The notes beneath the pieces are model-generated. The model did no database searches. It was not told where the DNA came from and saw nothing but the letters and a program-made list of their open reading frames with translations. A stretch of 64,000 nucleotides of DNA, taken from positions 1 through 64,000 of the forward strand of contig CAUYUJ010019374.1 of the NCBI GenBank assembly GCA_963575745.1, read 5' to 3'. Both the position numbers and the translations under genes were made by a program. Shown in pieces: positions 13,131 through 49,651 of the stretch; position 1 is the first letter of the stretch; each line of letters begins with the position of its first letter. Source of the DNA: Prorocentrum cordatum (lineage: Eukaryota; Sar; Dinophyceae; Prorocentrales; Prorocentraceae).

Positions 13131-13179
13131 CGTAACCTTTTGGCTGAAGCCAGATTGGCCTAAGCCACCTTGGACCGAG
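13131..13179 (+). other. Spliced-leader relic cluster, unit 1
   Basis: Bases 13131-13149 resemble the dinoflagellate SL core CGTAGCCATTTTGGCTCAAG with one base missing and a few substitutions. Two 15-base blocks follow without a gap (13150-13164 ccagattggcctaag and 13165-13179 ccaccttggaccgag), each a decayed copy of the SL 3' part CCATTTTGGCTCAAG. Confidence 0.75.
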
Positions 13180-13246
13180 GAGCTTGCTGAGGTGCTACGC
13201 GTTGCTTCCATGATCTGCGATTTATTTGAGACCAGGGCTGCGCTGT

Positions 13247-14430
13247 ATGTTCCTGCCCTGTGTGAGAGTGCTCCGTGGTTATGGTCTTGCCGGCTCGAGT
13301 CCCTGCGTATTTTACCCCCGGCGTTTCTATACGTCCTCGACGGGGGCGGCTGTGGTCAGTTCCCACGGTCGCATTCGAAGCAAGAATGGAATCATCACTT
13401 TTGGCTGTTTGAGCGATTCAGGATACTACACTACCGAGGTTGGTGGAAGCAGAAATTATGTGCATCGGTTGGTGGCACATGCTTTCTTGGGGCCACCGCC
13501 TTCGACGCAGCATTGCGATGTGAATCACAAGGACCGTGATCGTGGCAACAATCATGTTGAAATTTGGAGTTCGTCACACGTTCCGAGAACATCCTCCATT
13601 CATATGCAGCGAACAGTACCCGCAGAGCTTGCGCAAATGCACTCTCCAAACCGGTCCTCAGCAGATGGGCTGGACAATTTGGTCGCTGGACCAATCACTC
13701 CTCTGGGCGCCTAGCGTCCCTCGAAACTGGTGTTGACCAGGGTACCATATGTAAGTGTTGCAAGGGTAAGATAATTTCACCAAAAGGGTATGAGTTCAAA
13801 TATGGAGCACCCATCGTCCCGCCATGTTTGCTAGGCGAGGAGTGGCGTCCTGCCTTACACCCATGCACAGGCACAGAGCTATCGACCTGGGAGGTCAGCT
13901 CCCACGGACGAATGAAAACCACTCGCGGGTTAGTCTCGTATGGCTCGCAGACTTTAGCTGGCTATCGCTCTGTACTAATTACCACCGACGGTCGGAAAAC
14001 AAATCATTTGCTGCATCGACTCGTCGCCCGGGCCTTTTTATGGCAACCATCTGATTCAGAAGATCTAGTGGTCAATCACATCGACGGCAATAGAGGAAAT
14101 AATTCCAAAAGTAATTTAGAATATGTGACCCGTTCGCAGAACTCGCTCGTTTCAAAGAAATGGTGGCTTGGACGCGCAAGTGCCGGAGTAACAAAGTCGA
14201 AACCTGTATGGGGACGGATAGTTGGATCGGAGTCATGGAAGTGGTACGCATCGATGACCGAAGCCGCGCGCCTTTTGGGCTTGGCGGCCGGCAGTATATC
14301 GTACTGTTGCAATGGGATCCAGCGACGCGCCGGTAATTACGAGTTCAAGTTTGCAGATTCGACCGTCCCCAGTGTGTTGCCAGGAGAGGTGTGGCGCGAG
14401 ATCCCGCAGTGCTTGTTAACGAAAAAGCCG
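13247..14430 (+). pseudogene. HNH-1: frameshifted double NUMOD4-HNH-NUMOD1 gene
   Basis: Colinear with the intact copies, but one base is missing near 13560, where siblings read gttgataatttgg and this copy reads gttgaaatttgg. The loss falls inside the first HNH motif, so one frame (from ATG 13247) carries the N-terminal region up to the NNH residues and another frame (from about 13564 onward) carries the rest: the linker, the second NUMOD4 (EEWRPALH), the second HNH (VVNHIDGN) and the last NUMOD1. The second frame runs open through the GC-rich tail to 14991. An SL relic cluster lies 68 bases upstream of the start. It is probably inactive, unless the missing base is a sequencing error. The neighbouring segment is duplicated at 45.1 kb, where the copy is broken at different places. 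Confidence 0.8.
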
Positions 14431-15391
14431 CGAGTACCCTTCGCCACTCGCTGCTTCACATACTCAGATAGTGCTACAGTACGCTTCTTCCAGACCTCCT
14501 GGGAGCTGCCTCCGGATATTTGTTGCAGCTCTCCTCGCCGCCGCCGCCGTCCCCTCCCCCGCCTGGGCCCATCCGCTCGCCAGCCCTGCGCTTCAGTCCG
14601 TCGGCGTGTGCTGCTTCGCGCTCTCCGGTGTGGGCGCCGCCCCAAAGGGGGGCCTCCCAAAGGGGGGGGCGGTCTGCGCAGGGGGGAGCGGTGGCCACAG
14701 CGGAGCGATGCCGAAGCTCAGAGCCCCGAGCCATCGGGGCTGGGCCCAGACCCCCGCTTTTCGCTGTTTTCGTCCGCTGGAGGCCCTCACTGGGCCTCGG
14801 GGCCGTCAAAAAACGACTCGGGGCGAAAAACCAGTCCAGGGGAAGGGGTCCAGACCTCTGAGGGCTCACGTCTTAAAAAGTTCATGACGTCGGGGGTCTC
14901 GGGGGTGAGGGGCAGCTCCTGGTTCGTACCTCGGGGGCCCAAAGCGGAGTTGCCCCAGACCAGAGTGATCCCGGATCACTCGGGCATCTAACTGTTTCCG
15001 AAACATGGGGGTTGGGGATGCGGTCAGGGGGTAACTCTTGGTTCGTGCGTCGGGGGCCCGAACCAGAGCTACCCCGGGCCAGAGGTATCCTGGATATCTC
15101 GGGCGTCCAAGAATCTCGAAGACAACCAAAATCTTGAGGACAACAAAAGTTGCATACAGGTTATTTGGGCTCCGCGCGGATTTCTTGGATCTCTTAAAGC
15201 AGAGCCGTGAAGGGGGAGGGCCACGAAACGAAAGAGCTCTAAAGCTGTGACACCGCGCACGTCTCTCTGCCTGGCCTCCGCCCGCGCCACGAAGACCTGC
15301 AGTCGGATCCGAGCCTCGACAACCACGGAAAGGCGCGTGCTTGCACGCGCGCGCAATTGCCTGCGGCACGCCGTTCGGTAACTAATTGCAC

Positions 15392-15549
15392 TGCAGTCCC
15401 TCTACAGGAGGAATATTCAAAAATAATCAAAAAAAAAAAAAAAAAAAAAACATGGAGGCGATTTTCTATGTTTTTTGACTATGTTCGAATGCTTGTTTAT
15501 TATTTTCTTTTTCGTTCAAAATCCGCCTGTAGGAGGACATGCCCCGCCT
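15392..15549. mobile_element. MITE family 3, unit 1 tail
   Basis: It begins near gtccctctacaggaggaata and ends near cctgtaggaggacatgcccc, which are inverted relatives of each other. The AT-rich interior includes a run of 21 As. It is near-identical to 46990-47131 except for the length of the A run. Confidence 0.75.
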
Positions 15550-15725
15550 AAACGTACCCTCCTCCTTCCCCCACACGCATCAGACTTTTTCCTGTGCGCA
15601 GCCCCCATGCGGGCAATGTTTCTCGCCCTGGTGGATCCAGCTCCGATGGTCCCAGGGGGAGTGAGGGGGGGAGGGGGGGGGGCGATTCACGAGAGCCCCC
15701 GATCGGCGGCGATCCCCGGGGGGGG

Positions 15726-17058: not shown

Positions 17059-17740
17059 AAACACGTCGATTTCGAAAACGAATCAAAATGTTCGCCCGCG
17101 TTTGCAACATCATGCCCCCGCGCACCCTCCGCGGAGGGGCGCCACGCCGTCGCGCGAGCCCGCGCAGCCCGGCTCATCGGATGCCGGACTCGTTCGGTCG
17201 CGATCGGCAACGACCGATCGGCACTCCAAATCGGTCGTCGGGACCGATCGCACACGACCGATCGGCCGCAACCGAGTTTGAAGCACATCGGTCGCGACCG
17301 GTACCGGAATCTAGTGGCCTTCGTCCTATCCCGAGACCCTGCCCTGGGTCGTGGCCAGAGGTCTTTTGGAGTCTCGTTGAGGCCTCCTTGTGGCCTCTCG
17401 GGGGGCCTGTTCGGAGACTCCTAGGGGCTTATTGGGAGCATATTGGGGTATCTTGGGCGCCTCCTCGTGACTTACACCTCGAAAACATATTGTTGGTCAC
17501 AACGGCGAGGGTATACCCTGTCAGGCAGCGGCTCTGGGCCGACCAGGCCTTCCCAGGCCACACTCGTCAACACCGGTCGGGGAGGTCGGTAAAGGAATAG
17601 GCGGTCACTGCATGCCCTGCCACGCGCCTCTGGTCTGCGCTCGTCTAAACAGGAGGCCCCGTATGGCATCGCCTGGTTTTGAGGCCCCGGATTCTCTTCA
17701 CAACACCCCAAAGTTGTTGCACATCTAGTGATTGCCACTG

Positions 17741-17790
17741 CGTAACCTTTTTGGCTCAAGCCAGCTTGGCTTAAGCCACCTTAGGCCGAG
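17741..17790 (+). other. Spliced-leader relic cluster, unit 2
   Basis: Bases 17741-17760 match the SL core CGTAGCCATTTTGGCTCAAG at 18 of 20 positions. Bases 17761-17775 (ccagcttggcttaag) match the SL 3' part CCATTTTGGCTCAAG at 12 of 15, and 17776-17790 (ccaccttaggccgag) at 9 of 15. The decay increases toward the gene, as expected if the 5'-most relic is the youngest. Confidence 0.85.
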
Positions 17791-17857: not shown

Positions 17858-19204
17858 ATGCTCCTGCCCTTTGTGAAAGCACGCCTTGGTTATGGTATTG
17901 CCTGCACGAGTGCCTGCTCGTTTTACCCCCAGCGTTTCTTTATATCGTCGACGAGGACGGCTGCGGTCAGTTGCCACGGTCGCATTCGAAGCAAGAATGG
18001 AATCATCACTTGGGGCTGTTTGAACGATTCAGGATACTACACTACCAAGATCGGTGGGAGCAGTAATTATGTGCATCGACTGGTGGCCCATGCTTTCTTG
18101 GGGCCACCGCCTTCGACGCAGCATTGCGATGTGAATCACAAGGACCGTGATCGTGGCAATAATCATCTTGATAATTTGGAGTTCGTCACACGTTCCGAGA
18201 ATATCTTACATTCATACGCAGCGAACAGTACTCGCAGAATTTCCGCAGATGCACTCTCCCGACCGGTCCTCAGCAGATGGGCTGGACAAGGTCGCTGGAC
18301 CGATTACTCCTCTGTGCGCCGAGCGTCCCTCGAAACGGGTGTTGATCGCAGTGCTATCTGCATGTGTTGCAAGGGCAGGATGATTTCAGCAAAGGGGTAT
18401 GAGTTTAGATTTGGAGCACCCATCGGTCCGCCATGTTTACCTGGCGAGGAGTGGCGTCCTGCTCTACACCCATGCACAGGCAGAGAGCTATCGACCTGGG
18501 AGGTCAGCTCCCACGGCCGAATGAAATCCACTCGCGGATTGGTTTCTTACGGCTCGCGGACTTTAGCTGGCTATCGTGCTACAGGAATTTCAACCGACGG
18601 TCGGCAAACAAAACATCTCGTACATCGACTCGTCGCCCGAGCCTTTCTATGGCAACCATCTTACGCAGAAGATCTCGTTGTCAATCACATCGACGGCAAT
18701 AAAGAAAATAATTCCATTGGTAATTTAGAATATGTGAATCGGTCGCAGAAGGCGCTCCTTTCAAAGAAATTGTGGTTTGGATGCTCAAGTTCCGGAGTCA
18801 CAAGGTCGAAACCTGTATGGGCACGGATAGTAGGATCGGAGTCATGGAATTGGTACGCATCGATGACCGAAGCCGCGCGCCTTTTGCGTTTGACCGTTGG
18901 CAATATATCGCTATGTTGCCGTGGGATCACGCGACGCGCCAGTAGTTACGAGTTCAAGTTTGCAGATTCGACAGTCCCCAGTGTGTTGCCAGGAGAGGTG
19001 TGGCGCGAGATCCCGCAGTGCCTGTTCACGAAAAAGCCGCGAGTACCCTTCGCCACTCGCTGCTTCACACGTTCAGATAGTGCTACAGTACGCTTCTTCC
19101 AGACCTCCCAGGAGCTGCCTCCTGATACTAATTGCAGCTCTCCTCGCCGCCGCCGCCGTCCCCTCCCCCGCCTGGGCCCATCCGCTCGCCAGCCGCGCGC
19201 GTAA
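17858..19204 (+). CDS. HNH-2: intact double NUMOD4-HNH-NUMOD1 endonuclease-like protein
   Basis: The predicted protein has 448 residues from the ATG at 17858 and reads as two homing-endonuclease modules in tandem. Module 1 has a NUMOD4-like strand (VSCHGRIRS, about residues 37-45), an HNH motif (VHRLVAHAFL, then DVNHKDRDRGNN, about 72-102) and a NUMOD1-like DNA-binding stretch (about 134-186, with CCKGR). Module 2 repeats this: EEWRPALH and EVSSHGR (about 197-221), VHRLVARAFL and VVNHIDGN (about 255-281), then SKPVW to YEFKFADS (about 318-370). The His and Asn residues typical of the HNH metal site are present in both modules. Proteins of this type occur in phages, bacteria and organelle introns and nick or cut DNA. 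Residues after about 394 come from repeat-derived GC-rich DNA and may not be natural. An earlier ATG after the SL relics (17821) opens a different, overlapping frame, so the start is uncertain. Confidence 0.75.
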   Translation: MLLPFVKARLGYGIACTSACSFYPQRFFISSTRTAAVSCHGRIRSKNGIITWGCLNDSGYYTTKIGGSSNYVHRLVAHAFLGPPPSTQHCDVNHKDRDRGNNHLDNLEFVTRSENILHSYAANSTRRISADALSRPVLSRWAGQGRWTDYSSVRRASLETGVDRSAICMCCKGRMISAKGYEFRFGAPIGPPCLPGEEWRPALHPCTGRELSTWEVSSHGRMKSTRGLVSYGSRTLAGYRATGISTDGRQTKHLVHRLVARAFLWQPSYAEDLVVNHIDGNKENNSIGNLEYVNRSQKALLSKKLWFGCSSSGVTRSKPVWARIVGSESWNWYASMTEAARLLRLTVGNISLCCRGITRRASSYEFKFADSTVPSVLPGEVWREIPQCLFTKKPRVPFATRCFTRSDSATVRFFQTSQELPPDTNCSSPRRRRRPLPRLGPSARQPRA

Positions 19205-20044
19205 GTCCGTCGGCGCGTGCCGCCTCGCGCGCTCCGGTGTGGGCGCCGCCCCAGAGGGGGGCGCCCAAAGAGGGGGGGCGGGGCGGCCTGCGCAGGGGGC
19301 GGAGGCCACAGCGGAGCGACGCCGCAGTTCGGAGCCCCGAGTCATCGGGGCTGGGGATGGTGAGGGGTACGGCCAGACCGAGGTAGAAGATCGAGGTCGG
19401 TTCGGGGAGGGCACCCCAGTGTTCTTCGTGCTTGCTGGATGCCCTTGTGCACCCTGGGGAGGGTACCCTTGGATGTTCTGTTTGTTTTGGCCGGCGGAGG
19501 GTCTCGTGTTCTTGAAGGATATGCTTGGTGGTCTATGTCCGACTGTAGCTCCTGGTTCGTACTTCGGGGGCCCAAAGCGGAGTTACCCCAGACCAGAGCT
19601 ATCCCGGATATTTCGGGCATCCAACCACACTCCCGAATCATCGGGGTTCGGGGATGTGGTCAGGAGTGACTCCTGGTTCGTGCGTCGGGGGCCCGAACCA
19701 GAGTTAACCCAGGCCAGAGTTACCCCAGATATCTCGGGCGTCTTAGGAATCTCGGAGACACCAAATTTTGCATCTCGAAGACAACAAAACTTGCATGCAG
19801 GTAGCATCTCGGGGTTCTGCGCAGATTGCGTGGATCCCTAAACGCGGAGCCGTGAAGGGAGAGGGCCCTCGAAATAAAAAAGAGCTCTGAAGCTGTGACA
19901 GCGCGTTTCGTAATGCCTGGCCCTCGCCCGCACCACAAACTTGTATTCAGATCCGAGCCTCGACAACCACGGAACGCGCGTGCTTGCACATGCATGCGCA
20001 TTTGCCTGCAGCAGGCCGTGCGGTACTTGCCCTCCTGCTTCCCC

Positions 20045-20650
20045 TGCGTACACCCATGCACAGGCACAGAGCTATCGACCTGGGAGGTCAGCTCCCACGG
20101 ACGAATGAAATCCTTTCGCGGATTAGTCTCTTACGGCTCGCAGACTTTAGTTGGCTATCGTCTTACAGGAATTACAACCGACGGTCGGCGAACAAATCAT
20201 CTCGTACATCGACTCGTCGCCCGGGCTTTTTTATGGCAACCATCTCATTCAGAAGATCTCGTGGTCAATCACATCGACGGCAATAAAGGAAATAATTCCA
20301 CCAGTAATTTAGAATATGTGACTCGGTCGCAGAACTCGCTCCTTTCCAAGAAATGGTGGCTTGGACGCTCAAGTTCTGGAGCAACAAGGTCGAAACCTGT
20401 AAGGGGACGGATAGTTTGATCGGAGTCATGGAAGTGGTACGCATCGATGACCGAAGCCGCGCGCCTTTTGCGTTTGACCGTTGGCAATATATATATATAT
20501 ATATATATGTGTATCGCTTTGCTGCCGTGGGATCACACGACGCGCCGGTAATTACGAGTTCAAGTTTGCAGATTCGACCGTCCCCAGCGTGCTGCCAGGA
20601 GAGGTGTGGCGCGGGATCCCGCAGTGCTTGTTCACGAAAAAGCCGCGAGT
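20045..20650 (+). pseudogene. HNH-3: truncated second module only
   Basis: Sequence homologous to the other copies starts abruptly within the second NUMOD4 (HPCTGTELSTWEV) and continues through the second HNH (VVNHIDGNKGNN) and NUMOD1. The first module is missing, replaced by spacer DNA that ordinarily lies downstream of an HNH gene. A G-to-T change makes a stop near 20417 (gatagtttgatc, where siblings have gatagttggatc), and an (AT)n expansion at about 20488-20508 disrupts the NUMOD1 region. It is clearly non-functional and most likely came from unequal recombination between two units. Confidence 0.85.
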
Positions 20651-24196: not shown

Positions 24197-24246
24197 CGTA
24201 GCCTTTTTGGCTCAAGCCAGCTTGGCCTGAGCCACCTTGGGCCGAG
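24197..24246 (+). other. Spliced-leader relic cluster, unit 4
   Basis: Bases 24197-24216 match the 20-base SL core at 19 of 20 positions, the single difference being T for A at position 8. They are followed without a gap by ccagcttggcctgag (24217-24231, 10 of 15) and ccaccttgggccgag (24232-24246, 10 of 15). There is no GT after the relic, so this is not an SL RNA gene. Confidence 0.9.
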
Positions 24247-24320: not shown

Positions 24321-25505
24321 ATGCGCCTGCCCTGTGTGAGAGCGCGCCTTGGTTATGGTCTTGCCTGCTCGAGCGCCTGCTCATTTCACCCCCGGCGTTT
24401 CTCTACGTCGTCGACGGGGGCGGCTGCGGTTAGTTCCCACGGTCGGACTCGAAGCAAGAATGGAATCATCACTTGGGGCTGTTTGAGCGATTCAGGATAT
24501 TATACTACCAGGATTGGTGGCCGCAAGAATTACGTGCATCGATTGGTGGCCCATGCTTTCTTGGGGCCACCGCCTTCGACGCAGCATTGCGATGTGAATC
24601 ACAAGGACCGCGATCGTGGCAACAACCATGTTGATAATTTGGAGTTCGTCACACGTTCCGAGAACATCTTCCATTCATATGTAGCGAACCGTACTCGTAG
24701 ATCTTCCGCACATGCACACTCCAAACCAGTCCTGAGCAGACGGTCTGGACAAGGTCGCTGGGTCGATCACTCCTCTGGGGTCCTAGCGTCCCTCGAAACG
24801 GGCGTTGATGCCAGTCTCATCTACTTGTGCTGCAAGGGCAGGAGAACTTCAGCAAAGGGCTATGAGTTTAGATATCAACCACCCATCGTTCCGCCATGTT
24901 TGCCAGGCGAGGAATGGCGTCCTGCCTTACACCCATGCACAGGCGCACAGCTATCGAATTGGGAGGTCAGCTCCCACGGACGAATGAAATCCTCTCGCGG
25001 ATTGGTCTCCTACGGCTCGCAGACTTTAGCTGGTTATCATGCTACAGGAATTTCAATCGACGGTCAGCTAACAAATCATCTCGTACATCGACTCGTCGCC
25101 CGAGCTTTTTTATGGCAACCATCTTACTCAGAAGATCTCGTGGTCAATCACATCGACGGCAATAAAGGAAATAATGCCAAAAGTAACTTAGAATACGTGA
25201 CTCGGTCGCAGAACGCGCTCCTTTCAAACAAGTGGTGGCTTGGACGCTCCAGTGCCATAGTAAAATGGTCGAAACCTGTTTTGGGACGCACATTTGGATC
25301 GGAGTCATGGAAGTGGTACGCATCGATGGCCGAAGCCGAGCGCCTATTGGGACTGGCGATTGGCAGTATATCGCATTGCTGTCGTGGGATCGCGCGACGC
25401 GTTGGTAGTTACGAGTTCAAGCTTGCAGATTCGACAGTCCCCAGTGTGTTGCCAGGTGAGGTGTGGCGCGAGATACCGCAGTGCTTGTTAACGAAAAAGC
25501 CGTGA
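24321..25505 (+). CDS. HNH-4: intact, short form ending after module 2
   Basis: 394 residues from ATG 24321. Both modules are present: SSHGRTRSKNG, DVNHKDRDRGNNHVDN, then EEWRPALH, VSSHGRMKS, VVNHIDGNKGNN and a NUMOD1 stretch ending YEFKLADS. Unlike HNH-2, 6 and 7 the frame stops immediately after KKP, because the codon is TGA where those siblings have CGA (a C-to-T change at a CpG). That end fits the domain boundary, so the short form may be the authentic length and the extensions elsewhere read-through into repeat DNA. The SL relic lies 74 bases upstream of the start. An overlapping frame begins at ATG 24284. I infer it is the parent or copy of HNH-9, which shares its stop and its 3' tail. 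Confidence 0.75.
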   Translation: MRLPCVRARLGYGLACSSACSFHPRRFSTSSTGAAAVSSHGRTRSKNGIITWGCLSDSGYYTTRIGGRKNYVHRLVAHAFLGPPPSTQHCDVNHKDRDRGNNHVDNLEFVTRSENIFHSYVANRTRRSSAHAHSKPVLSRRSGQGRWVDHSSGVLASLETGVDASLIYLCCKGRRTSAKGYEFRYQPPIVPPCLPGEEWRPALHPCTGAQLSNWEVSSHGRMKSSRGLVSYGSQTLAGYHATGISIDGQLTNHLVHRLVARAFLWQPSYSEDLVVNHIDGNKGNNAKSNLEYVTRSQNALLSNKWWLGRSSAIVKWSKPVLGRTFGSESWKWYASMAEAERLLGLAIGSISHCCRGIARRVGSYEFKLADSTVPSVLPGEVWREIPQCLLTKKP

Positions 25506-25944: not shown

Positions 25945-27077
25945 AGCCGTGATGAGGATTATGCGGATTATGAAGATGATGGCGGTGATGACGATGATGA
26001 AAGTGATGATGATGATGATGGTATTTATGATGATGATGATGATGATGATGGTGATTGTGATGGCGATGGCGATGGTGATGATGGGGTACTGACGACGATG
26101 ATGTTGATGATGCGAATTTCTGATGGCGATGTCGATGGCGATGACGATGACGTGATGATGATGTTGATGATGGTGGTAGTGGTAGTGGTGGTAGTGGTGA
26201 TAATGATGCTCATGGTGATGTTTATGATTACGATTGTGATGACGATGATGATGATTCTGGTGATGATGGTAATGGTGGTGATGATGGTTTCGATGTTGCG
26301 GATGGTGATGACGATGATGGTGATGATGATGGTGGTGGTGATGGTAACAATGATGGTGATCATGATGTGGATGATGATGACCCTGATGATAGATATATGA
26401 TAATTTTAATGGTGATGATGTTGGCAATGACGATGGTGATGATGATATTGATGATGGTGGTGATGGTGACGATGGTGATGGTGGTTGTACTGATGCTAGT
26501 GGTGATGATGATGCTGATGGTGATAGTGTTCATGATGATGCTGATGATGCTGATGATGGTGCTGATGCGGATGATGTTGATGATGATGTTGATGATGAAG
26601 TTGATGATGGTGATGATGATAATGATGATGATGTTGATGATGATAATGCTGATGATGAAGATGTTGCTGATGATGATGCTGTTGTTGATGATGAAGATGA
26701 CACCAACTCTACTGTTGTTGTTGATGCTGCTGGTGATGATGCTCATGCTGATGCTGTTGATGGTGATGATGCTGATGATGACGCCGATGATGATGCTGTT
26801 GATGGTGACGTTGCTGATGATGATGCTGGTGATGATGCTGATGATGATGATAATGATGATGATGACGATGCTGATTATGATGCTGATGATGCTGATTATG
26901 TTGCTGTTGATGATACTGATGATGCTGGTGATCATGATGAATATGTTGATGATGATGCTGATTATGATGATGATGATGCCTCTGATGATGATGAGCATGA
27001 TGCTGATGATGCTGATGATGATGCTGATGCTGCTGATGATAAGGATGACGATGAAGATGATGATGATGATGATGATC

Positions 27078-27148
<71 letters not shown>

Positions 27149-27170
27149 AATGAGATGAGATGAGATGAGA
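25945..27170. repeat. GAT-type microsatellite, 1.2 kb
   Basis: Nearly pure GATGAT/GATGGT/GCTGAT trinucleotides, perfect at about 27056-27147. Frames give Asp, Met or Ile/Ser/His runs on either strand. The same arrangement follows HNH-9 at 51350-52678. Confidence 0.95.
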
Positions 27171-34558: not shown

Positions 34559-34607
34559 CGTAACTTTTTGGCTCAAGCCAGATTAGCCTAAGCCACCTTG
34601 GGCCGAA
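34559..34607 (+). other. Spliced-leader relic cluster, unit 6
   Basis: Bases 34559-34577 (cgtaactttttggctcaag) are a 19-base variant of the SL core, followed by ccagattagcctaag and ccaccttgggccgaa, the two older relic blocks. Confidence 0.78.
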
Positions 34608-38804: not shown

Positions 38805-38853
38805 CGTACCCTTTGGGCTCAAGCTGGCATGGCCTAAGCCACCTTGGGCCGAA
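38805..38853 (+). other. Spliced-leader relic cluster, unit 7
   Basis: cgtaccctttgggctcaag (38805-38823), then ctggcatggcctaag (38824-38838) and ccaccttgggccgaa (38839-38853), almost the same as the unit 5 cluster. Confidence 0.75.
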
Positions 38854-38920: not shown

Positions 38921-40585
38921 ATGCGCCTGCCCTGTGTGAGAGCACGCCCTGGTTCTGGTCTTGCCTGCTCGAGTGCCTGCTCATTTTACCCCCGGCGTTT
39001 CTCTATACCGTCGACGGGGGCGGCTGCCGTCAGTTCCCACGGTCGCATTCGAAGCAAGAATGGAATCATCACTTGGGGTTGTTTGACCGATGCAGGATAC
39101 TACGTTACCCGGGTTGGTGGAAGCCCTAATCTTGTGCATCGATTGGTGGCCCATGCTTTCTTGGGGCCACCGCCTTCGACGCAGCATTGCGATGTGAATC
39201 ACAAGGACCGTGATCGTGGCAACAACCATGTTGATAATTTGGAGTTCGTCACACGTTCCGAGAACATCTTCCATTCATATGCAGCGAACCGCACTCGCAG
39301 AACTTCCGGAGATGCACTCTCCAAACCGGTCCTTAGCAGATGGGGTGGACAAGGTCGCTGGATCGATCACTCCTCTGGGCGCCTAGCGTCCCTCGAAACG
39401 GGCGTTGATCCTAGACAAATCCACAGCTGTTGCAAGGGCAGGATCATGTCAGCAAAGGGGTATGAGTTCAAATATGGAGCACCCATCGTTCCGCCATGTT
39501 TGCCAGGCGAGGAGTGGCGTCCTGCCTTACACCCATGCACAGGCTCAGAGCTTTCGACCTGGGAGGTCAGCTCCCATGGACGAGTGAAAACTGCTCGCGG
39601 ATTGGTTTCCTACGGCTCGCAGAATTTAGCCGGCTATCGTCTTACAGGAATTTCAATCGACGGTCAGCAAACAAATCATCTCGTGCATCGACTCGTCGCC
39701 CGAGCTTTTTTATGGCAACCATTTTACTCAGAAGATCTCGTGGTCAATCACATCGACGGCAATAGAGGAAATAATGTCAAAAGTAATTTAGAATATGTGA
39801 CTCGGTCGCAGAACTCGCTCCTTTCAAAGAAATGGTGGCTTGGACGCTCAAGTTCCGGAGTAGTAAGGTCGAAACCTATATGGGGACGGATAGTTGGATC
39901 GGAGTCATGGAAGTGGTACGCATCGATGACCGAAGCCGCGCGCCTTTTGGGCCTGACGGTTGGCAGTATATCGCGTTGCTGCAATGGGATCACGCGACGC
40001 GACGGTAGTTACGAGTTCAAGTTTGCAGATTCGGCAGTCCCCAGTGTGTTGCCAGGAGAGGTGTGGCGCGAGATGCCGCAGTGCTTGTTAACGGAAAAGC
40101 CCCGCGTACCCTTCGCCACTCGCTGCTTCACACGCGCAGATGGTGCCACAGTGCTCTGCTTCCAGACCTCCCAGGAGCTGCCTCCTGATATGTTTTGCAG
40201 CTCTCCTCGCCGCCGCCGCCCCCTCCCCCGCCCGGGCCCATCCGCTCGCCAGCCCTGCGCTTCAGTCCGTCGGCACGTGTCGCCTCGCGCGCTCCGGTGT
40301 GGGCGCCGCCCCAACGGGGGGCCTCCCAAAGGGGGGGGGGCGGCCTGCGCGGGGGGGGCGGAGGCCACAGCGGAGCGGTGCCAAAGCTCGGAGCCCCGAG
40401 CCATCGGGGCTGGGCCCCGACCCCCGCGGGTCATGACAGAATCAGGCCGGGCCGTGTTGCGCTGTTTTCGGCCGCTGGAGGCCTTCACCAGGCCTCGGGA
40501 CCGTCAGGAAACGACTCGGGGCGAACAACCGGTCCAGGGGAAGGGGTCCAGGCCTCTGAGGGCGCACGTCATGAGTAATGTATGA
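38921..40585 (+). CDS. HNH-7: intact double HNH protein, longest read-through
   Basis: 554 residues from ATG 38921. Module 1: VSSHGRIRSKNG, VHRLVAHAFL, DVNHKDRDRGNNHVDN, LSKPVLSRW. Module 2: EEWRPALH, VSSHGRVKT, VVNHIDGNRGNN, SKPIWGRIVGS, CCNGITRRDGSYEFKF. The conserved part ends at about residue 394; the remaining 160 residues are translated GC-rich tail and dispersed repeat, so they are probably not functional. The SL relic is 98 bases upstream of the start. The overlapping frame from ATG 38884 is also open. The retrogene described at 41785 lies 1.2 kb downstream in the same orientation. Confidence 0.74.
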   Translation: MRLPCVRARPGSGLACSSACSFYPRRFSIPSTGAAAVSSHGRIRSKNGIITWGCLTDAGYYVTRVGGSPNLVHRLVAHAFLGPPPSTQHCDVNHKDRDRGNNHVDNLEFVTRSENIFHSYAANRTRRTSGDALSKPVLSRWGGQGRWIDHSSGRLASLETGVDPRQIHSCCKGRIMSAKGYEFKYGAPIVPPCLPGEEWRPALHPCTGSELSTWEVSSHGRVKTARGLVSYGSQNLAGYRLTGISIDGQQTNHLVHRLVARAFLWQPFYSEDLVVNHIDGNRGNNVKSNLEYVTRSQNSLLSKKWWLGRSSSGVVRSKPIWGRIVGSESWKWYASMTEAARLLGLTVGSISRCCNGITRRDGSYEFKFADSAVPSVLPGEVWREMPQCLLTEKPRVPFATRCFTRADGATVLCFQTSQELPPDMFCSSPRRRRPLPRPGPSARQPCASVRRHVSPRALRCGRRPNGGPPKGGGAACAGGAEATAERCQSSEPRAIGAGPRPPRVMTESGRAVLRCFRPLEAFTRPRDRQETTRGEQPVQGKGSRPLRAHVMSNV

Positions 40586-41712
40586 CGTCTGGGGTCTGGC
40601 GGGGTGGTGAGGGGCAGCTCCTGGTTCGTGCCTCGGGGGCCCAAAGCAGAGTTACCTCGGGCCAGGGCTATTCCGAAGAAATCGGGCATCCAACCATTCC
40701 CGGGTCATGGGAGTTGGGGATGCGGTCAAGGGGTAATTCTTGGCTCGTGCGCGGGGGGCCCGAATTGGAGTTATCCCGGGCCAGAGTCATCCTGGATATC
40801 TCGAGCGTCTAAGAATCTCGAAGACATGAATCATTGAATTTCAAGGACGACAAAAATTGCATGCAGGTCGTATTTGTGGGCACCGCGCGGATTTCTTGGC
40901 TCTCGAAAAGCGGAGCCGTGAATGGGGAGGGCCACGAAACGAAAGAGTACTCAAGCTGTGACCGCGCGCTCCTTTCTGCCTGGCCTCCGCCCGCGCCACA
41001 AAGACCTGTAGTCAGATCCGAGCCTCGACAACTTCGGAGCGCGCGTGCTTGCACATGCACGCGCAATGGCCTGCGGCAGGCCGTGCGGTAGTTACCCTTC
41101 TCTTTCCCCCCCACATATCCAACTTCTTCCGATGCGCAGCCCCGGAGGTGTCGACCCCTTCCCTGCGGGTAATCTTTCGCCCTGGATCCATCTCCGATGG
41201 TCCCGGGGGGCCCGTTTCACGAGCCTCTCCGAGGGCTCGGAAGTCCCTTGGCCTTCGGAGAAGCTTCCTGAGCCTTTTCCGAAGACAGAAACCTCTCAGA
41301 AGGTGCGAGGGCTTCTGAGAAGCCCCGCCGCCTTCTGAGAAGGCCTTCTAGTTCTCACTTCCCCCCCGGGCGCACCGCCGGGCCGTTCTAGACGATCTGG
41401 GCACCCTGGGACCGCCATCGGCGAGGCGCAGCTGCTGGCAAGCATCCCGGGGCTGGGAAACCACCGAGAGCCGACGAAAACGCTTGAGAACACCTCGAGC
41501 CTCGAACCGCCGGCCAGAGGCCGAACACGAAGGGAGACACGCCGGGCCTGAAAAAATATCGGGCCGTCGGAGATCTGGGCCCGTGGTCGGTTTTTTATTC
41601 GTTGTTTAGCCGATCGGCGCGGGCCCTCGCACCCTCCTCTCCCCACCCTCCCCTGGCTGGAGTAGATCTTGGCTGTTTTTGGCGCCTGCTTCGAGCAGGT
41701 AAAGCCTCCCCC

Positions 41713-41731
41713 ATAATGGACGCACTGCTGC
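41713..41731. repeat. Target-site duplication, left copy
   Basis: ataatggacgcactgctgc, identical to 43167-43185. It ends exactly one base before the SL relic of the retrogene begins. Confidence 0.88.
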
Positions 41732-41752
41732 CTGTAGCCATTTTGGCTCAAG
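41732..41752 (+). other. Spliced-leader relic of the SGNH retrogene
   Basis: ctgtagccattttggctcaa followed by g, matching the dinoflagellate SL 3' 21 bases at 20 positions. No second relic follows, unlike the HNH family, suggesting a single round of recycling. Confidence 0.92.
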
Positions 41753-41784
41753 GCCCAATAATTTAGATTCACAATCGAGATCAT

Positions 41785-42732
41785 ATGCTTGCGTCTTCCA
41801 TGGTCTGCACGACGATGATTCGCGTGGGATGTTTGGTGGTCTGTGCCGCTGTGGCGAGCGGGCTCCATGCCGACACGGGCGCCCTGACCCAGCTCCGGGG
41901 TTCCAATCATTCGGTCCTCATCCTGGGATGCTCTGTAGACAGGAACGCCGTGGAGAGGTTCTGCGGCAAGGTCGACAGGTTTTACCGCGTGGGGTGCTAC
42001 GACGAGGAGCGCCAGCTCAACATCGGCTTCGTCTTCCACCCCGGGGTGGGCATCAACGGTGACCTGCAGCCGCCCTTTTACAACCGCACCCAGTGGGGCT
42101 CCAACATAGGGCAGCCTATATCCGACGACAAGGTCCTGCGCAAGTGGTCCTCGAGCATGGTGGGAGAGCTGTTCCCCGACATGGTCGTGGTGGACAGCTC
42201 CCTGTGGGACCTGTCGACCTGGGCCTCGTGGGGCATGAGAAACGTGACGGCAGACCGGCTGCGCCAGTGGGGCATGCGTGATCTGAGGAATGAATTGGCC
42301 CGCGTGTCCGAGGCATACAACAAGAGCCGCATCGTCTTCAGGACTGCGCCCGCAGTGTACAAGACAAAGTGGGTCGTTGGTGACGCAGGACAAGTGTACA
42401 AGGATGTGGCGGCAATCTCGAATGATGGAATCCGCATGATGCAGAGGGAGCTGAGGAAGCACATCAAGGGTGGCAAGCTGTACGGCAAGTACGAGGTGAT
42501 CGACTACAGCCAGATCATGGACGATCTTATCCAGGAGCGCGGGGCCGACGATCCGTCCCTGTGGCTGAAGGACGGGTACCATCCCAGTGCGGAGCCCTCC
42601 CGACGCTACCTCAACGAGATCTTCCGCCTCATGGACCTGGCGACGGTGGAGAAGAAGGTGGAGGTGGACGGCTTCCGGCGGCGGTGGGCGGCGGCCGCTG
42701 GCGACAGGGACGAGGCGGGCGATCTGCCGTGA
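41785..42732 (+). CDS. Secreted SGNH/PC-esterase-like hydrolase, intronless retrogene
   Basis: 315 residues. Residues 1-28 form a signal peptide (hydrophobic GCLVVCAAVASG). Block I is VLILGCSVDRN with the candidate nucleophile Ser50; the usual GDS is GCS here. VVVDSSLWDLSTW (about 134-146) resembles the NSGLWDL block of PC-esterase and Pmr5/Cas1-type SGNH proteins. KDGYHPS supplies a DxxH pair (Asp263, His266), the usual catalytic Asp and His. Four N-glycosylation sequons (Asn41, 100, 153, 179) agree with passage through the secretory route. Substrate is unknown; relatives remove or transfer acetyl groups on glycans. The first ATG after the SL relic was taken as start. The frame is fully open, so the copy may be active or recent. 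Whether a promoter was captured is unknown. Confidence 0.82.
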   Translation: MLASSMVCTTMIRVGCLVVCAAVASGLHADTGALTQLRGSNHSVLILGCSVDRNAVERFCGKVDRFYRVGCYDEERQLNIGFVFHPGVGINGDLQPPFYNRTQWGSNIGQPISDDKVLRKWSSSMVGELFPDMVVVDSSLWDLSTWASWGMRNVTADRLRQWGMRDLRNELARVSEAYNKSRIVFRTAPAVYKTKWVVGDAGQVYKDVAAISNDGIRMMQRELRKHIKGGKLYGKYEVIDYSQIMDDLIQERGADDPSLWLKDGYHPSAEPSRRYLNEIFRLMDLATVEKKVEVDGFRRRWAAAAGDRDEAGDLP

Positions 42733-43166
42733 GCGCTGCGGCAATTCCCTCGCCAGCCCGATTGCCCGAATTGTGAAGATGGGCCCGGTGGTTCTCACTT
42801 CACTGGAAATAAACAGCTTCTCGGATCGGCGCCGAGCTCCCTTCCCCGGAGGCGCGCCCCCGCGCCAGGGGCGGCGCTGAGGGTGCATAAACCTACACTG
42901 TTTCATGTTGTCCCAGCTTGTTAGTGCATGCAGCGGTTCACCTATTCCAGGTTGGCTATAGTAGGCTCTTGGGTTTGGATGTGTGTCTCCCGCCTCCTCG
43001 GCCTCCTCCTTCGTCGTCGTCGTCGTCCTCCTCCTCCTCCTCCGGCGGATGTGGAAGCAATCTGTTTTAGCAGTTTGAACGCCAGTTTGGGCGCACACTG
43101 CTTTATTAACAGTTTTAACGCCGGCTGCGCGGCAACTGCTGGCCAGGTGTTGGTTCCGTGAAAAAA

Positions 43167-43185
43167 ATAATGGACGCACTGCTGC
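43167..43185. repeat. Target-site duplication, right copy
   Basis: ataatggacgcactgctgc directly after the oligo(A) run, identical to 41713-41731. Confidence 0.88.
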
Positions 43186-44722
43186 AAACAGTCGCACTAA
43201 GCAGAGGTCCGGAGCTAGACCCCCCCCCCTCCCCCCCAGTCCTCCCAATGTCGAAACGCCGAATAGTAAAACGTCGCAGGGCAGCACGGGACGGGCCCGG
43301 TCACCAGAGGGCACACTGCCGCGCAGCCGCGGCCTACGCCGGGCCTCTGGCGGCGCAGGGGGCGCGCCGCCGCGCGGGGGGCGCACGGGGCGCTCGTGGG
43401 CGCGGGCTGCGCACGAGGGCGCGCGCAGCCAGACGCTTCGCACGGGAAGCGACACCTCGCCCAGCTGTCGGCGGTTCAGAGGTGGGGTCCTAAGGGATGG
43501 GGTCCTAAAGGACGAGGTGCCTCGCACAGTGCAGATCCACCCCTGGACCTCGGCCTGTCCTCGGGACCCCATCCCTCAGGCCATCATCTCTGAACCACCG
43601 GCACAAGTGGGCGACGCAAGAAGACGGGGTCGTCTGCGCCGACGTTGGCGCGTAAACTGCCCGCGGAAGGCCGCGCGACGGCGCCCTCGTCTCCACTGCA
43701 GCGCGCCGCGCGGGCGGCCCGCGTGAGCCGCCGCGTGAGGTCGCTGTGCCACCTTTCGCAAGACCCGTGTGTTGACCGTCGGGCGAGGGGGGGGCCCGCC
43801 GGCGGCAGAGCTCGGCCGAGCTCAGGCGCGAGCCAGTTCCCAGGGGCCACGGTCACGAGCACCAGGTCCTCGGACCGGGACCGCAAACTCTTGCGCGCAA
43901 CCGGCCCCGGGGGCAGCCCCCCCAGGGGGACCGCGCGGCGCGCCGCCGAACAGACGTCTGCACGATCGAGGATCTCAGAGCGGAAAAAACAAAATTGACC
44001 CCCAAACGGAGAGCAAAACGTCGATGTCGAATATGTATAACAATGTCCCCCCGCATTTGCAACATCATGCCCCCCGCGCACCCGCCGCGGAGGGGCGCCA
44101 CGCCGTCGCGCGAACTCGCGCGGCCCGGATCATCAGATTCTGGACTCTTTCGGTCGCGATCGGCAGCGACCGATCGGCATTCCAAATCGGTCGCGGCCGA
44201 TCGCACGCGACCTGTCGAACGCAACCGAGTTTGAAGCACATCGGTCGCGACTGGTACCAGAATCTAGTGGCCTTCGTCCTATCCCGAGACCCTGCCCTGG
44301 GTCGTGGCCAGAGGTCTCCTGGAGTCTCGTTGAGGCCTCCTAGTGGCCTCTCGGGGGGCCTCTTGGGAGGCTCCTGGGAGCTTATTGGGAGCATCTGGGG
44401 GTATCTTGGGCGCCTCTTCGTGACTTAATGACACCTGGAGAACATGTTGTTGGTCACAACGGCGATGGTTAAGTGAGTAATTGCGCAAGGTATACCTTGT
44501 CAGGCAGCGGCTTTGGGCCGACCGGATCTTCCCAGGCCACTCTCTTAAACATTTGTCGGGGAGGGTGGTAAAGGACTAGGCGGTCACTGCATGCCCTGCC
44601 ACGCGCCTCTGCTCAGCGCTCATATGAGCATGAGGCCCCGTATGGCACCGCCTGGTGTTAAGGCTTCCGCGTTCTCTCCACAACAAACCCCACAGTTGTT
44701 GCACATCTAATGACTGCCACTG

Positions 44723-44771
44723 CGTAATCTTTCGGTTCAAGCCAGATTGGCCTAAGCCACCTTGGGCCGAG
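44723..44771 (+). other. Spliced-leader relic cluster, unit 8
   Basis: cgtaatctttcggttcaag (44723-44741) is the most decayed SL core of the array. It is followed by ccagattggcctaag and ccaccttgggccgag, the first identical to the block in unit 1. Confidence 0.68.
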
Positions 44772-44838: not shown

Positions 44839-46019
44839 ATGCGCCTGCCCTGTGTGAGAGCGCGCCTTGGTTATGGTCTTGCCTGCTCGAGCGCCTGCTC
44901 ATTTTACCCCCGGCGTTTCTCTACATCGTCGACGGGGGCAGCTGCGGTTAGTTGCCACGGTCGCATTCGAAGCAAGAATGGAATCATCACTTGGGGCAGT
45001 TTGAACGATGCAGGATACTACACTACCCGGATTGGTGGAAGCCCTAATCTTGTGCATCGATTGGTTGCCCATGCTTTCTTGGGGCCACCGCCTTCGACGC
45101 AGCATTGCGATGTAAATCACAAGGACCGTGATCGTGGCAACAATCATGTCGATAATTTGGAGTTCGTCACACGTTCCGAGAACATCTTCCATTCATACGA
45201 ACAGCACTCGCAGAACCTGCGGAGATGCACTCTCCAAACCAGTCCTCAGCAGATGGGCTGCGCAAGGTGGTCGCTGGACCAATCACTCCTCTGGGCGCCT
45301 AGCGTCCCTCGAAACTGGTGTTGACCTGGGTACCATATGTAAGTGTTGCAAGGGCAAGATGATTTCAGCAAAAGGGTATGAGTTCAAATATGGAGCACCC
45401 ATCGTTTCGCCATGTTTGCCAGGCGAGGAGTGGCGTCCTGCCTTACACCCATGCACAGGCACAGAGCTATCGACCTGGGAGGTCAGCTCCCACGGACGAA
45501 TGAAATCCTCTCGCGGATTAGTCTCTTACGGCTCGCAGACTTTAGCTGGCTATCGTCTTACAGGAATTCGAACCCACGGTCGGCTAACAAATCATCTCGT
45601 ACATCGACTCGTGGCCCGGGCTTTTTTTATGGCAACCATCTTATTCAGAAGATCTCGTGGTCAATCACATCGACGGCAATAGAGGAAATAATTCCACCAG
45701 TAATTTAGAATATGTGACTCGTTCGCAGAACTCGCTCGTTTCAAAGAAATGGTGGCTTGGACGCGCAAGTTCCGGAGTAGTAAGGTCGAAACCTGTGTGG
45801 GGACGGATAGTTGCATCGGAGTCATGGGAGTGGTACGCATCGATGACCGAAGCCGCGCGCCTTTTGGACTTAAAGCGTGGCAGCATATCGTATTGCTGCC
45901 GTGGGATCACACGACGCGCAGGCAGTTACGAGTTCAAGTTTGCAGATTCGACCGTCCCCAGCGTGTTGCCAGGCGAGGTGTGGCGCGAGATCCCGCAGTG
46001 CTTGTTAAAGAAAAAGCCG
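44839..46019 (+). pseudogene. HNH-8: double HNH gene with two frameshifts
   Basis: Colinear with the intact copies but broken twice. Near 45199 five bases are missing (cattcatacgaacagc, where siblings read cattcatacgcagcgaacag), ending the first frame inside the linker after the first HNH. Near 45628 an extra T in a T run (gggctttttttatggc) breaks the second HNH module. The three partial frames together still encode every conserved block: DVNHKDRDRGNNHVDN, EEWRPALH and NHIDGNRGNN. The breaks differ from that of HNH-1, although the flanking DNA is nearly identical, so each was damaged after the segment was copied, or the conversion tract did not cover these sites. Confidence 0.85.
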
Positions 46020-46989: not shown

Positions 46990-47131
46990 TGCAGTCCCTC
47001 TACAGGAGGAATATTCAAAAATATTCAAAAAAACATGGAGGCGATTTTCTATGTTTTTTGACTATGTTCGAATGCTTGTTTATTATTTTCTTCTTCGTTC
47101 AAAATCCGCCTGTAGGAGGACATGCCCCGCC
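46990..47131. mobile_element. MITE family 3, unit 8 tail
   Basis: The same element as 15392-15549 but without the long A run; the ends gtccctctacaggaggaata and tgtaggaggacatgcccc are retained. Confidence 0.75.
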
Positions 47132-47304
47132 TAAACATACCCTCCTCCTTCCCCCACACGCATCAGACTTTTTCCTGTGCGCAGCCCACATGCGGGCAAT
47201 GTTTCTCGCCCTGGTGGATCCAGCTCCGATGGTCCCAGGGGGAGTGAAGGGGGGAGGGGGGGGGGGCGATTCACGAGAGCCCCCGATCGGCGGCGATCCC
47301 CGGG

Positions 47305-47481
47305 GGGGGGGGAAGTGAGAAGGAGCAGGCCTCCTCAGAAGGCTCGGAGGTCCCCTGGCCTCTTGAGAAGTTTCTCCTGAGCCATGCCCCGGAGACGCAG
47401 AGAACCTTTTGGAAGGCGCGAGGGCATCCGAGAAGCCCGCCGCCTTCTGAGAAGGCCTTCTCCTTCTCACTTCCCCCCGCC
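47305..47481. mobile_element. Foldback element family 4, copy
   Basis: gggaagtgagaaggagcagg at the left and ccttctccttctcacttccc at the right are inverted repeats. It is near-identical to 15726-15900. Confidence 0.78.
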
Positions 47482-49601
47482 GCCCGCGCCGCCGAATTCG
47501 GTTTTGGGGTCACAACTCCAATCTCTCTGGCGGCCGTTCGAGACGATCCGGGCACACCCGGAACGCCCTCGGCGAGGCGCAGCTGCTGAGCTGGCAAGCA
47601 TCCTGGGGCTGGAAAACCGCCCAGAACTGACGAAAGCGCCCGCAAAACCTCGAACCTCGAACCGCCGACCAGAGGCCGAAACGAAGGAGGACACGCAGGG
47701 GTTCAAAGCATCTGCCCCCCCTCCGACGTCGCAGAACTTCACGGGACGGGCCCGGTCACCAGAGGGCACACCGCCGCGCAGCCGTGGCCTGCGTTGGCTT
47801 CTGGCGGCAGAGGGGGCGCGCCGCCGCGCGGGGGGCGCACGGCGCGCTCGTGGGCGCGGGCTGCGCACAGCGGCGCGGGCAGCCAGGCGCTTCGCACTGG
47901 AAGCGGCACCTCGCCCACTTGTCGGCGGTTCAGAGGTGGGGTCTTGCGGGATGGGGTCCTCAAGGACGAGGTGCCTCGCACAGTGCAGATCCACCCCTGG
48001 ACCTCGGCCTGTCCTTGGGGCCCCATCCCTCAGGCCCCCCCTCTCTGAACCACCGGCACAAGTGGGCGACGCAAGAAAGCCGGGGCGTCTGCGCCGACGT
48101 TGGCGCGCAAGCGTCCCGCGTAAGGCCGCGCGCAAGCGCCCTCGTCTCCACTGTGGCGTGCCGCGCGGGCAGCCCGCGTGAGCCGCCGCGTGAGGTCGCT
48201 GTGCCACCTCGCGTGAGACCCGTGTATTGATCGTCGCTCCAGTGGGCGAGGGGGCCCGCCAGCAGCAGAGCTCGGCCGAGCTCAAGCGCGAGCCAGGTCC
48301 CATTCGGACCCGTGTCTTGACCGTCGCTCCAGTGGGCGAGGGGGCCCGCCGGCGTCAGAGCTCGGCCGAGCTCAGGCGCGAGCCAGGTCCCACTCGGACC
48401 CCTGGCCACGGCCACGAGCACCAGGGCCTCGGACCGGGACCACAAACTCTTGCGCGCAACCGGCCCGGGGGCAGCCAGGGGGACCGCCCGGCGCGCCGCC
48501 GAACCGACGTCTGCGCGATCGAGGATCTCAGAACGGAAGAACCAAAACTGACCCCCAAACGGAGAGCAAAACGTCGATGTCGAAAATGAATAACAATGTC
48601 CCCCCGCGTTTGCAACATCATGCCCCGTGCGCACCCGCCGCGGAGGGGCGCCACGCCGTCGCGCGAGCTCGCGCGGCCCGGCTCATCGGATGCCGGACTC
48701 TGTCGGTCGCGATCGGCAGCGACCGATCGGCACTGCAAGTCAGTCGCGACCGATCGCACACGACCGATCGGCCGCAACCGAATCTGAAGCACATCGGTCG
48801 CGACCGATACCACAATCAAGTGGCCTTCGTCCCATCCCGCCATCCTGCCCTTGGTCGTGGCCAGAGGTCTCCTGGAGTCTAGGCCTCCTGGGGGCTTATT
48901 GGGAGCATCTTTGGGTGTCTTGGGCGCCTCTTCGTGACCTACACCTCGAGAACACATTGCTGGTCACGACGGCGAGGGTTGAGTGTGCACTTGCGCAAGG
49001 TATAGCTTGTCGGGCAGCGGCTCTGGGCCGACCAGGCCTTCCCAGGCCACACTCCTCAACACCGGTCGGGGAGGGTGGCGGCCGCTGTCTGCCCAGCAAG
49101 ACGCCTCTGTTCTGCGCTCATCTGAACATGAGGCACATCGGTCGCGACCGGAACTCGAATCCAGTGGCCTTCGCCCCATCCCGCCACCCTGCCGTTGGTC
49201 GTGGTCAGAGGTCTCGGCCTTCTAGTGGCCTCTCGGGGGGCCTGTTTGGAGTCTCCTGGGGGTGTATTGGGAGCATCCGGGGGTATCTTGGGCGCCCCTT
49301 CTTGATCTACACCTCGAAAACAGGTTACTGGTCACAACGGCGAAGGTTAAGTGTGTAATGGTGCAAGGTATACCTTGTTAGGCAGCGGCTCTGGGCCGAC
49401 TGGGCCTTCCCAGGTCACACTCTTCAACACTGGTCGGGGAGGGTGGTTAAGGAATAGGCGGTCATTAATGTCTGCCCAGCAACGCGCCTCTGTTCTGCAC
49501 TCATCTGAACATGAGGCCCCGTATGACATCGCCTGGTTTTGAGGCTCCCGCGTTCTCTCTACAGCACCGCAGAGCTGTTGCACATCTAGTGACTGCCACC
49601 G

Positions 49602-49651
49602 CGTAGCCTTTTTGGCTCAAGCTGGCATGGCCTAAGCCACCTTGGGCCGAG
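49602..49651 (+). other. Spliced-leader relic cluster, unit 9
   Basis: Bases 49602-49621 match the SL core at 19 of 20 positions, the same single difference as unit 4. The following blocks are ctggcatggcctaag and ccaccttgggccgag. Confidence 0.9.

Follow-up and report, generated by a model that had tools for sequence, protein, structure and literature searches.

Probable stack of spliced-leader relics in front of a tandem array of HNH-endonuclease-like genes in the dinoflagellate Prorocentrum cordatum

The window, i.e., the whole 64,000-nucleotide stretch of Prorocentrum cordatum DNA that was analyzed, harbors eight tandem HNH-endonuclease-like genes, each with a spliced leader (SL)-like string just upstream. 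The units differ on average by 0.115 in their open reading frame (ORF); six of the eight genes are open from a shared ATG and two (units 1 and 7) are frameshifted. By tblastn, eight copies possess the N-terminus and one additional copy is 5′-truncated:

13247-14430, +, HNH gene of unit 1, frameshifted (extent of tblastn match)
17858-19204, +, HNH gene of unit 2, open, with HNH_3 twice and an I-HmuI NUMOD-like domain twice
20042-20645, +, 5′-truncated, frameshifted HNH copy without SL match (tblastn match begins at residue 201)
24321-25505, +, HNH gene of unit 3, open
29810-31078, +, HNH gene of unit 4, open
34675-36144, +, HNH gene of unit 5, open
38921-40585, +, HNH gene of unit 6, open
44839-46019, +, HNH gene of unit 7, frameshifted (extent of tblastn match)
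49719-50906, +, HNH gene of unit 8, open

HNH_3 and NUMOD-like domains scored above the Pfam cut-offs in four ORF translations (units 1, 2, 5, and 6). Judged by sequence, these domains appear to be common to the array genes and the phage I-HmuI-like/NUMOD HNH homing endonucleases, whereas the array genes are eukaryotic and carry the HNH-NUMOD pair doubled in complete ORFs. Phage matches to the HNH protein showed 31-34% identity among the ten listed of 862 records, and neither these relatives nor the viral loci (80 kept of 570 confirmed) indicated more than membership in the general HNH family. HNH relatives totaled 680, 15 of which were examined among the matches listed (at least 120). A literature term search retrieved nothing joining Prorocentrum cordatum, genome, and HNH, and the term "endonuclease" occurs 0 times in the searchable portion of the P. 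cordatum genome paper (PMC10666404).

The initial annotation had placed a 19-20 nt SL match at the same site in all eight units, which was borne out, the best match being 19/20. The SL precedes all eight copies that bear the N-terminus, as had been proposed for every full-length HNH copy; the truncated one yielded no SL match in the edit-distance scan:

13131-13149, +, SL relic of unit 1, 19 nt, SL tail 12/15, internal AG absent
17741-17760, +, SL relic of unit 2, 18/20, SL tail 14/15, internal AG absent
24197-24216, +, SL relic of unit 3, 19/20, SL tail 14/15, internal GTAG kept
29693-29711, +, SL relic of unit 4, 19 nt, SL tail 13/15, internal AG absent
34559-34577, +, SL relic of unit 5, 19 nt, SL tail 13/15, internal AG absent
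38805-38823, +, SL relic of unit 6, 19 nt, SL tail 13/15, internal AG absent
44723-44741, +, SL relic of unit 7, 19 nt, most decayed, SL tail 10/15, internal AG absent
49602-49621, +, SL relic of unit 8, 19/20, SL tail 14/15, internal GTAG kept

Since the SL version measures 19 nt in units 1 and 4-7, the fixed 20-base string used originally takes in the first base of the following block in these units. A scan by edit distance to the 21-nt SL (cut-off 5) recovered seven of the eight unit SLs (edit 2 in units 3 and 8, 3 in unit 2, and 4 in units 1, 4, 5, and 6) as well as one extra locus at 41732 (edit 1); the SL of unit 7 was missed and is recognized through alignment only. No match was found on the minus strand at this cut-off. 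In twenty Markov-simulated 64-kb sequences, scanned on one strand, edit 4 was seen at 2 positions and edit 5 at 28; no position had an edit distance of 3 or below. In SL RNA genes, the SL is followed by a GT splice donor; here, CC or CT follows in all eight units and GT in none, ruling out an SL RNA gene array. The AG at the SL end is retained throughout (8/8), and the AG inside the SL is retained in units 3 and 8 and absent from the other six.

Directly adjoining the 3′ end of the SL are two contiguous 15-nt blocks that resemble CCATTTTGGCTCAAG:

13150-13179, +, relic blocks 1 (11/15) and 2 (10/15) of unit 1
17761-17790, +, relic blocks 1 (12/15) and 2 (9/15) of unit 2
24217-24246, +, relic blocks 1 (10/15) and 2 (10/15) of unit 3
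29712-29741, +, relic blocks 1 (8/15) and 2 (9/15) of unit 4
34578-34607, +, relic blocks 1 (10/15) and 2 (9/15) of unit 5
38824-38853, +, relic blocks 1 (8/15) and 2 (9/15) of unit 6
44742-44771, +, relic blocks 1 (11/15) and 2 (10/15) of unit 7
49622-49651, +, relic blocks 1 (8/15) and 2 (10/15) of unit 8

The scores given earlier for unit 2 (12 and 9 of 15) are correct, but the "10 and 10" ascribed to unit 4 belong to the third unit (24197), the unit at 29693 scoring 8 and 9. In the consensus of the eight units, the SL tail matches CCATTTTGGCTCAAG at 13/15, block 1 at 11/15, and block 2 at 10/15; both consensus blocks are 15 nt long, begin with CC, end with AG, and follow one another without a gap. 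The blocks lie upstream of the shared ATG and outside the gene models, so that a location within a conserved protein exon, which had been named as a potential refutation, is ruled out. Among eight close P. cordatum models, P0005-P0010 start at the shared ATG, P0019 starts at an upstream, out-of-frame ATG that is still 3′ of the blocks, and P0015 starts inside the gene.

The modest single-unit scores (8-12 and 9-10 of 15) raise the question of whether only the SL is genuine, deriving from one insertion, and both blocks are plain 5′ UTR that resembles it by chance. A single score of 10, as in block 2, indeed recurs at one other of 1,615 places in the unit consensus. However, none of 124,898 control pairs (adjacent 15-mers from both strands of the remaining window, with the SL loci masked) reached both 11 and 10, the best sum being 20 (one pair) as compared to 21. 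The block sum was furthermore reached by only 6 of 200,000 permuted queries (0.0039 with CC...AG held fixed) and in no case when the blocks themselves were shuffled (200,000 times). The register, moreover, is fixed beforehand by the relic model: the blocks, at offsets 0 and 15 from the SL end, score 11/15 and 10/15, no other offset in the range 0-28 scores above 8, and among adjacent pairs in the 1,629-nt unit consensus, SL tail plus block 1 reaches 24, block 1 plus block 2 reaches 21, and the next best pair 16. We therefore regard a chance resemblance as very improbable. Because all eight units descend from a single ancestor, the relic evidence counts as one event rather than eight.

This common ancestry is evident from the DNA upstream of the SL, where the other seven units all match unit 2 (query cut at 17000). 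The alignment with unit 2 reaches 640-741 bases in units 1, 6, and 7, 358-462 bases in units 3, 5, and 8, and 91 bases in unit 4, and additional homologous pieces lie farther upstream, beyond the through-running alignment. Because of this homology, eight independent insertions are ruled out, and an amplification of the DNA after the last insertion is supported.

Slamovits and Keeling reportedly described relic DinoSL retrogenes of dinoflagellates in 2008. According to four papers (PMC3229502, PMC7245778, PMC12014239, PMC6050394), the SL in such genes is truncated after its seventh base, leaving 15-nt relics directly behind a fuller SL, and multiple relics occur in a minority of genes; the formation of relics and their decay in the 3′ direction are treated in PMC3229502 and PMC7245778. 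Under its earlier name, Prorocentrum minimum, P. cordatum is credited with 477 retrogenes in the relic-SL literature on dinoflagellates. Relic SLs are already well documented, and the HNH array is a new example of a known process: as in these retrogenes, an SL lies directly upstream together with contiguous 15-nt relics, here as decayed copies. In contrast to them, the stack is much decayed, was multiplied to at least eight copies by DNA amplification, precedes an HNH-endonuclease family, and lacks the internal acceptor AG in six of eight units.

We consider it probable that the 5′ leader of the array ancestor was a stack of three SL fossils, built by repeated mRNA reinsertion and subsequently multiplied by DNA amplification. 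An SL-carrying mRNA of the HNH gene would have been reverse-transcribed and inserted into the genome. Trans-splicing of the new transcript would have used the AG within the old SL, so that a fresh SL was followed by a 15-nt remnant of the previous one. Reinsertion of the re-spliced transcript and one more such cycle would yield the order SL, relic, relic, gene, that is, at least three insertions in all. The locus would then have been amplified as DNA, together with its upstream flank, into the tandem array, after which the SL would have diverged between units like the flank and the internal AG would have been lost in six of them. The contiguous 15-nt CC...AG register and the place before the ATG are what repeated mRNA reinsertion predicts and, together with the homology upstream of the SL, they support the earlier proposal of at least three RNA rounds before DNA amplification. 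In addition, the SL tail outscores block 1 in 7/8 units (in unit 7, the tail scores 10 and does not surpass the blocks), which is the direction of decay described for relic SLs in PMC3229502. Weak points of the stack are the shortness of each block (15 nt) and the score of block 1 in units 4, 6, and 8, only 8/15. Re-splicing at the AG within the first SL is not supported as a general rule: that AG survives in only 2/8 units, and the six without it can no longer be re-spliced there for a further round of the cycle.

The number of blocks would not count RNA rounds, however, if a single SL-mRNA insertion had been followed by slippage duplication of the 15-nt SL tail. This would fit with the likeness of the two consensus blocks, which agree mutually at 11/15 and depart from the SL in the same way at two positions (5 and 11), as well as with their about equal decay, block 1 scoring better than block 2 in only 4/8 units, equally in one, and worse in three; consequently, it is not shown which of these two blocks is the older. 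In unit 2, TRF finds a 15-nt tandem repeat (period 15) at 17751-17782. Sharing of identical changes is nevertheless within chance if the blocks are independent (P 0.06-0.12), and slippage offers no reason why the duplicated length should be exactly that from the AG to the SL end, twice. Moreover, at position 3 of the relic, the consensus blocks retain the A of the SL: CCA is kept in block 1 of 5/8 units and block 2 of 7/8, but at that place in none of the eight SL tails, so that the SL in its present state is an unlikely template for the blocks. On this evidence, slippage appears quite unlikely, and repeated reinsertion remains our preferred reading.

That reading would be compatible with a present function of the SL-like stretch, which would add to its RNA origin, with the TTTT motif serving as a promoter or the stretch providing the splice acceptor of current transcripts. 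A promoter role of SL relics is proposed in passages of PMC6050394, the SL-end AG is present in all eight units, and the divergence between units drops from block 2 on (0.079 in block 2, 0.019 in the next 13 nt, and 0.087 in the rest of the UTR, as compared to 0.155 in the flank). The SL itself, however, diverges like the flank (0.152), the internal AG is mostly gone, and a change-point test on the UTR was not significant (P 0.079), with the best break at offset 105 rather than at the SL. These results speak against selection on the SL, and conservation for a present function seems unlikely. A still older relic had also been suggested in "gagcttgctgaag", but is not established, as this candidate third relic matches at 7/13 ungapped (permutation 0.02) and reaches only 0.087 with gaps allowed, or 0.064 with ends fixed.

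The extra SL locus of the edit scan belongs to another gene within the array:

41713-41731, +, 19-bp target-site duplication, left copy
41732-43166, +, younger-looking SL-bearing retrocopy of an SGNH/GDSL-hydrolase-like gene, with A-run at the 3′ end
41732-41752, +, SL of the retrocopy, 20/21; its ORF spans 41785-42732 (315 aa)
43167-43185, +, 19-bp target-site duplication, right copy

The two copies of the duplication, at 41713 and 43167, are identical, and seven A stand at the right junction, the last one common to the repeat. LINE-mediated processed genes arise by target-primed insertion. They likewise have long duplications of the target site and an A-run at the 3′ end, whereas the retrocopy at 41732-43166 starts with a spliced leader; its duplications and A-run point to a LINE-like insertion. 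A clean empty site was sought in the other units and not found; these lack a larger stretch (~41583-43270), placing the insertion in unit 6-specific sequence. The retrocopy indicates that insertion of SL-bearing mRNA happens in this genome. In the review PMC6050394, the element class behind dinoflagellate retroposition is called unknown and an LTR-element route is thought more likely. The retrocopy bears on this matter, as one case that is not decisive. Tentatively, and with more doubt than confidence, we suggest that the Prorocentrum HNH family spread first via RNA, by three SL-tagged reinsertions, and then via DNA, and that SL-tagged cDNA insertion here is LINE-like and target-primed, with long target-site duplications, rather than following an LTR route. 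If this is true, the SL tag would allow tracing of cDNA capture by dinoflagellate viruses.

Unidirectional tandem copies are likewise seen in dinoflagellate tandem single-exon gene arrays, and SL-like genomic sequence before the start codon in a few Amphidinium genes, according to PMC7245778 and PMC2488372; the present array differs from those in that it is made up of HNH genes and carries two relic blocks. SL relics allow counting of the RNA rounds in a gene's past, and in the HNH array of P. cordatum this count may be read from units that are open to mutual comparison.

An SL-like string (SL, the dinoflagellate spliced leader) lies at 8/8 unit positions of the tandem HNH-gene array, as the initial annotation had stated for the SL core with up to 19 of 20 matching bases: the match is 19/20 in units 3 and 8 and 18/20 in unit 2, and five units carry a 19-nt version. 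An edit-distance scan of the window with the SL recovered seven of the eight unit loci plus one extra site at 41732, the SL of unit 7 being beyond the scan cut-off and recognised by alignment only. In simulations (20 sequences of 64 kb, one strand), there were no SL matches at an edit distance of ≤3 and two positions at edit 4, a level that is also that of the SLs of units 1, 4, 5, and 6. Long TGATGA-type repeat arrays occur at 51353-52674 (after unit 8) and 25950-27180 (after unit 3), that is, behind the two units with the best SL.

Directly 3' of the SL, the unit consensus reads CCAGCTTGGCCTAAG (block 1), which matches the SL tail (the 15-nt 3' part after the internal AG) at 11/15 positions, followed by CCACCTTGGGCCGAG (block 2) with 10/15; scores in individual units range from 8 to 12 and from 9 to 10, respectively. 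The values of 12 and 9 reported for unit 2 are correct; those of 10 and 10 assigned to unit 4 belong to the third unit. As for chance resemblance, 0/124,898 adjacent 15-mer pairs elsewhere in the window reached 11 and 10, and 6/200,000 permuted queries attained the summed score (a fraction of 0.0039 with ends fixed). Scores of at least 10 were restricted to offsets 0 and 15 within offsets 0-28 after the SL. Across the 1,615 positions of the unit consensus, the SL tail plus block 1 gave 24, blocks 1 plus 2 gave 21, and the next best pair reached 16; taken singly, a score of 10 occurs at one further place, offset 1119. The still older relic that had tentatively been proposed in the following bases is a weak candidate.

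In the published SL-relic model, as outlined in passages of PMC3229502, PMC7245778, and PMC12014239, SL-bearing mRNAs are reinserted and re-spliced at the AG of SL position 7, leaving 15-nt relics that decay 3'-ward. The array fits this model in register, length, and place, and two relics plus a fuller SL would correspond to three insertions. The SL is the youngest layer, because its tail outscores block 1 in 7/8 units (the exception is unit 7, 10 vs. 11). Block 1 outscores block 2 in units 1, 2, 5, and 7, ties with it in unit 3, and falls behind it in units 4, 6, and 8; the relative age of the two blocks we infer from position via the model, the decay scores giving no order. This missing order shifts the balance slightly away from the main explanation and towards local duplication. 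Local duplication of the SL tail is an unlikely, minor rival that persists because the consensus blocks carry the same change at positions 5 and 11, and simulated independent decay yields at least two common changes in 6-12% of cases, depending on the transition share. However, CCA is kept in block 1 of 5/8 and block 2 of 7/8 units and in 0/8 SL tails, and the block length equals the AG-to-end length twice over. Repeated reinsertion of SL-bearing mRNA, then DNA amplification, is probably the main explanation.

For the upstream comparison, unit 2 served as reference with the query cut at 17000. Single alignments to it extend upstream of the SL by 741, 681, and 640 bases in units 1, 7, and 6, by 462, 462, and 358 bases in units 3, 8, and 5, and by 91 bases in unit 4, with additional matching pieces further upstream. 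All seven other units therefore match unit 2 upstream of the SL, which places DNA amplification after the last insertion, as previously suggested; eight separate insertions are ruled out by the same matching sequence. In unit 2 (window about 17650-17740) and at the corresponding place in the other units, divergence between units falls from ~0.3 to ~0.1 roughly 90 bases before the SL; the conserved block marked by this drop may represent the promoter, or flanking sequence of the last insertion.

Mean pairwise differences among units are 0.155 for the 70-nt flank, 0.152 for the SL, 0.193 for block 1, 0.079 for block 2, 0.019 for the 13 nt thereafter, 0.087 for the remaining UTR, and 0.115 for the ORF, 15-nt bins scattering widely. 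With the SL at the level of the flank, no selection on the SL is thus visible in this between-unit comparison. Trans-splicing at the AG inside the SL, as originally envisaged, agrees with the internal GTAG in units 3 and 8, where alone it is intact, and not with the other six units; the SL-end AG is kept in 8/8. Splicing at some other AG is plausible, since the Amphidinium acceptor is described, in the portion of PMC2488372 concerned, as an AG without fixed position.

The ATG common to the units is located 117 bases downstream of the SL start in unit 2; from it, 6/8 HNH copies are open and 2/8 frameshifted, and the six open ones give dN/dS values of 0.37-0.70 (15 pairs). The ORFs of units 2, 5, and 6 each encode two HNH_3 stretches and two NUMOD-like stretches of the I-HmuI type; in unit 1, where a frameshift delays the ORF start, there are two NUMOD-like stretches and a single HNH_3. 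The best four protein matches of the unit-5 ORF are unnamed P. cordatum proteins (93, 92, 81, and 80% identity), 3/4 of them carried on one 181,385-base contig; one of the four (P0008) is 99.2% identical to unit 2 over 394 residues.

The extra SL site belongs to another gene copy in the same array:

41732-43166 (41713-43185 with repeats), flanked by the unit-6 and unit-7 HNH genes: SL-bearing retrocopy of an SGNH/GDSL-hydrolase-like gene

It starts with an SL (20/21), which is followed by a short leader, an ORF of 315 aa, and a 3' A-run; identical 19-bp repeats, that is, target-site duplications, enclose all of it. Its closest relative, a P. cordatum protein bearing the name SGNH/GDSL hydrolase family protein (292/318 aligned positions identical), is listed for a contig of 368,631 bases; the ORF itself matches Pfam GDSL below the cut-off. 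The other units are missing about 41583-43270, a stretch larger than the retrocopy, so that an exact empty site was not seen. The copy is a younger-looking event than the SL stack of the array. A 3' A-run together with long target-site duplications is the mark of LINE-type insertion, and this single case points to such a route. The relevant part of a review (PMC6050394) regards the mediating element in dinoflagellates as unknown and LTR elements as more likely.

A search for the exact 21-nt SL returned a single IMG/VR contig (L081; 7157 bp, 22% GC, with a family-41 glycosyltransferase ORF), with these features:

about 1780-2766, minus strand: bounded island of ~50% GC, beginning at an SL and ending near an A-run
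2893-2913, minus strand: a further exact SL, 147 bases 5' of the one at the island start

The island, whose 254-aa ORF matched only itself in the protein search and had one sub-threshold Pfam match, looks like a cDNA of dinoflagellate origin that an AT-rich, giant-virus-like genome has captured, viral origin being taken from the IMG/VR label. No flanking duplication was found around it beyond short AT-rich repeats. The second SL is without a gene of its own, and 5' of it lies a stretch resembling an SL interrupted by a short palindrome.

Overall, the original observation is sound and its interpretation mostly right, with the corrections described, and the array is a multi-round example of an already known process.
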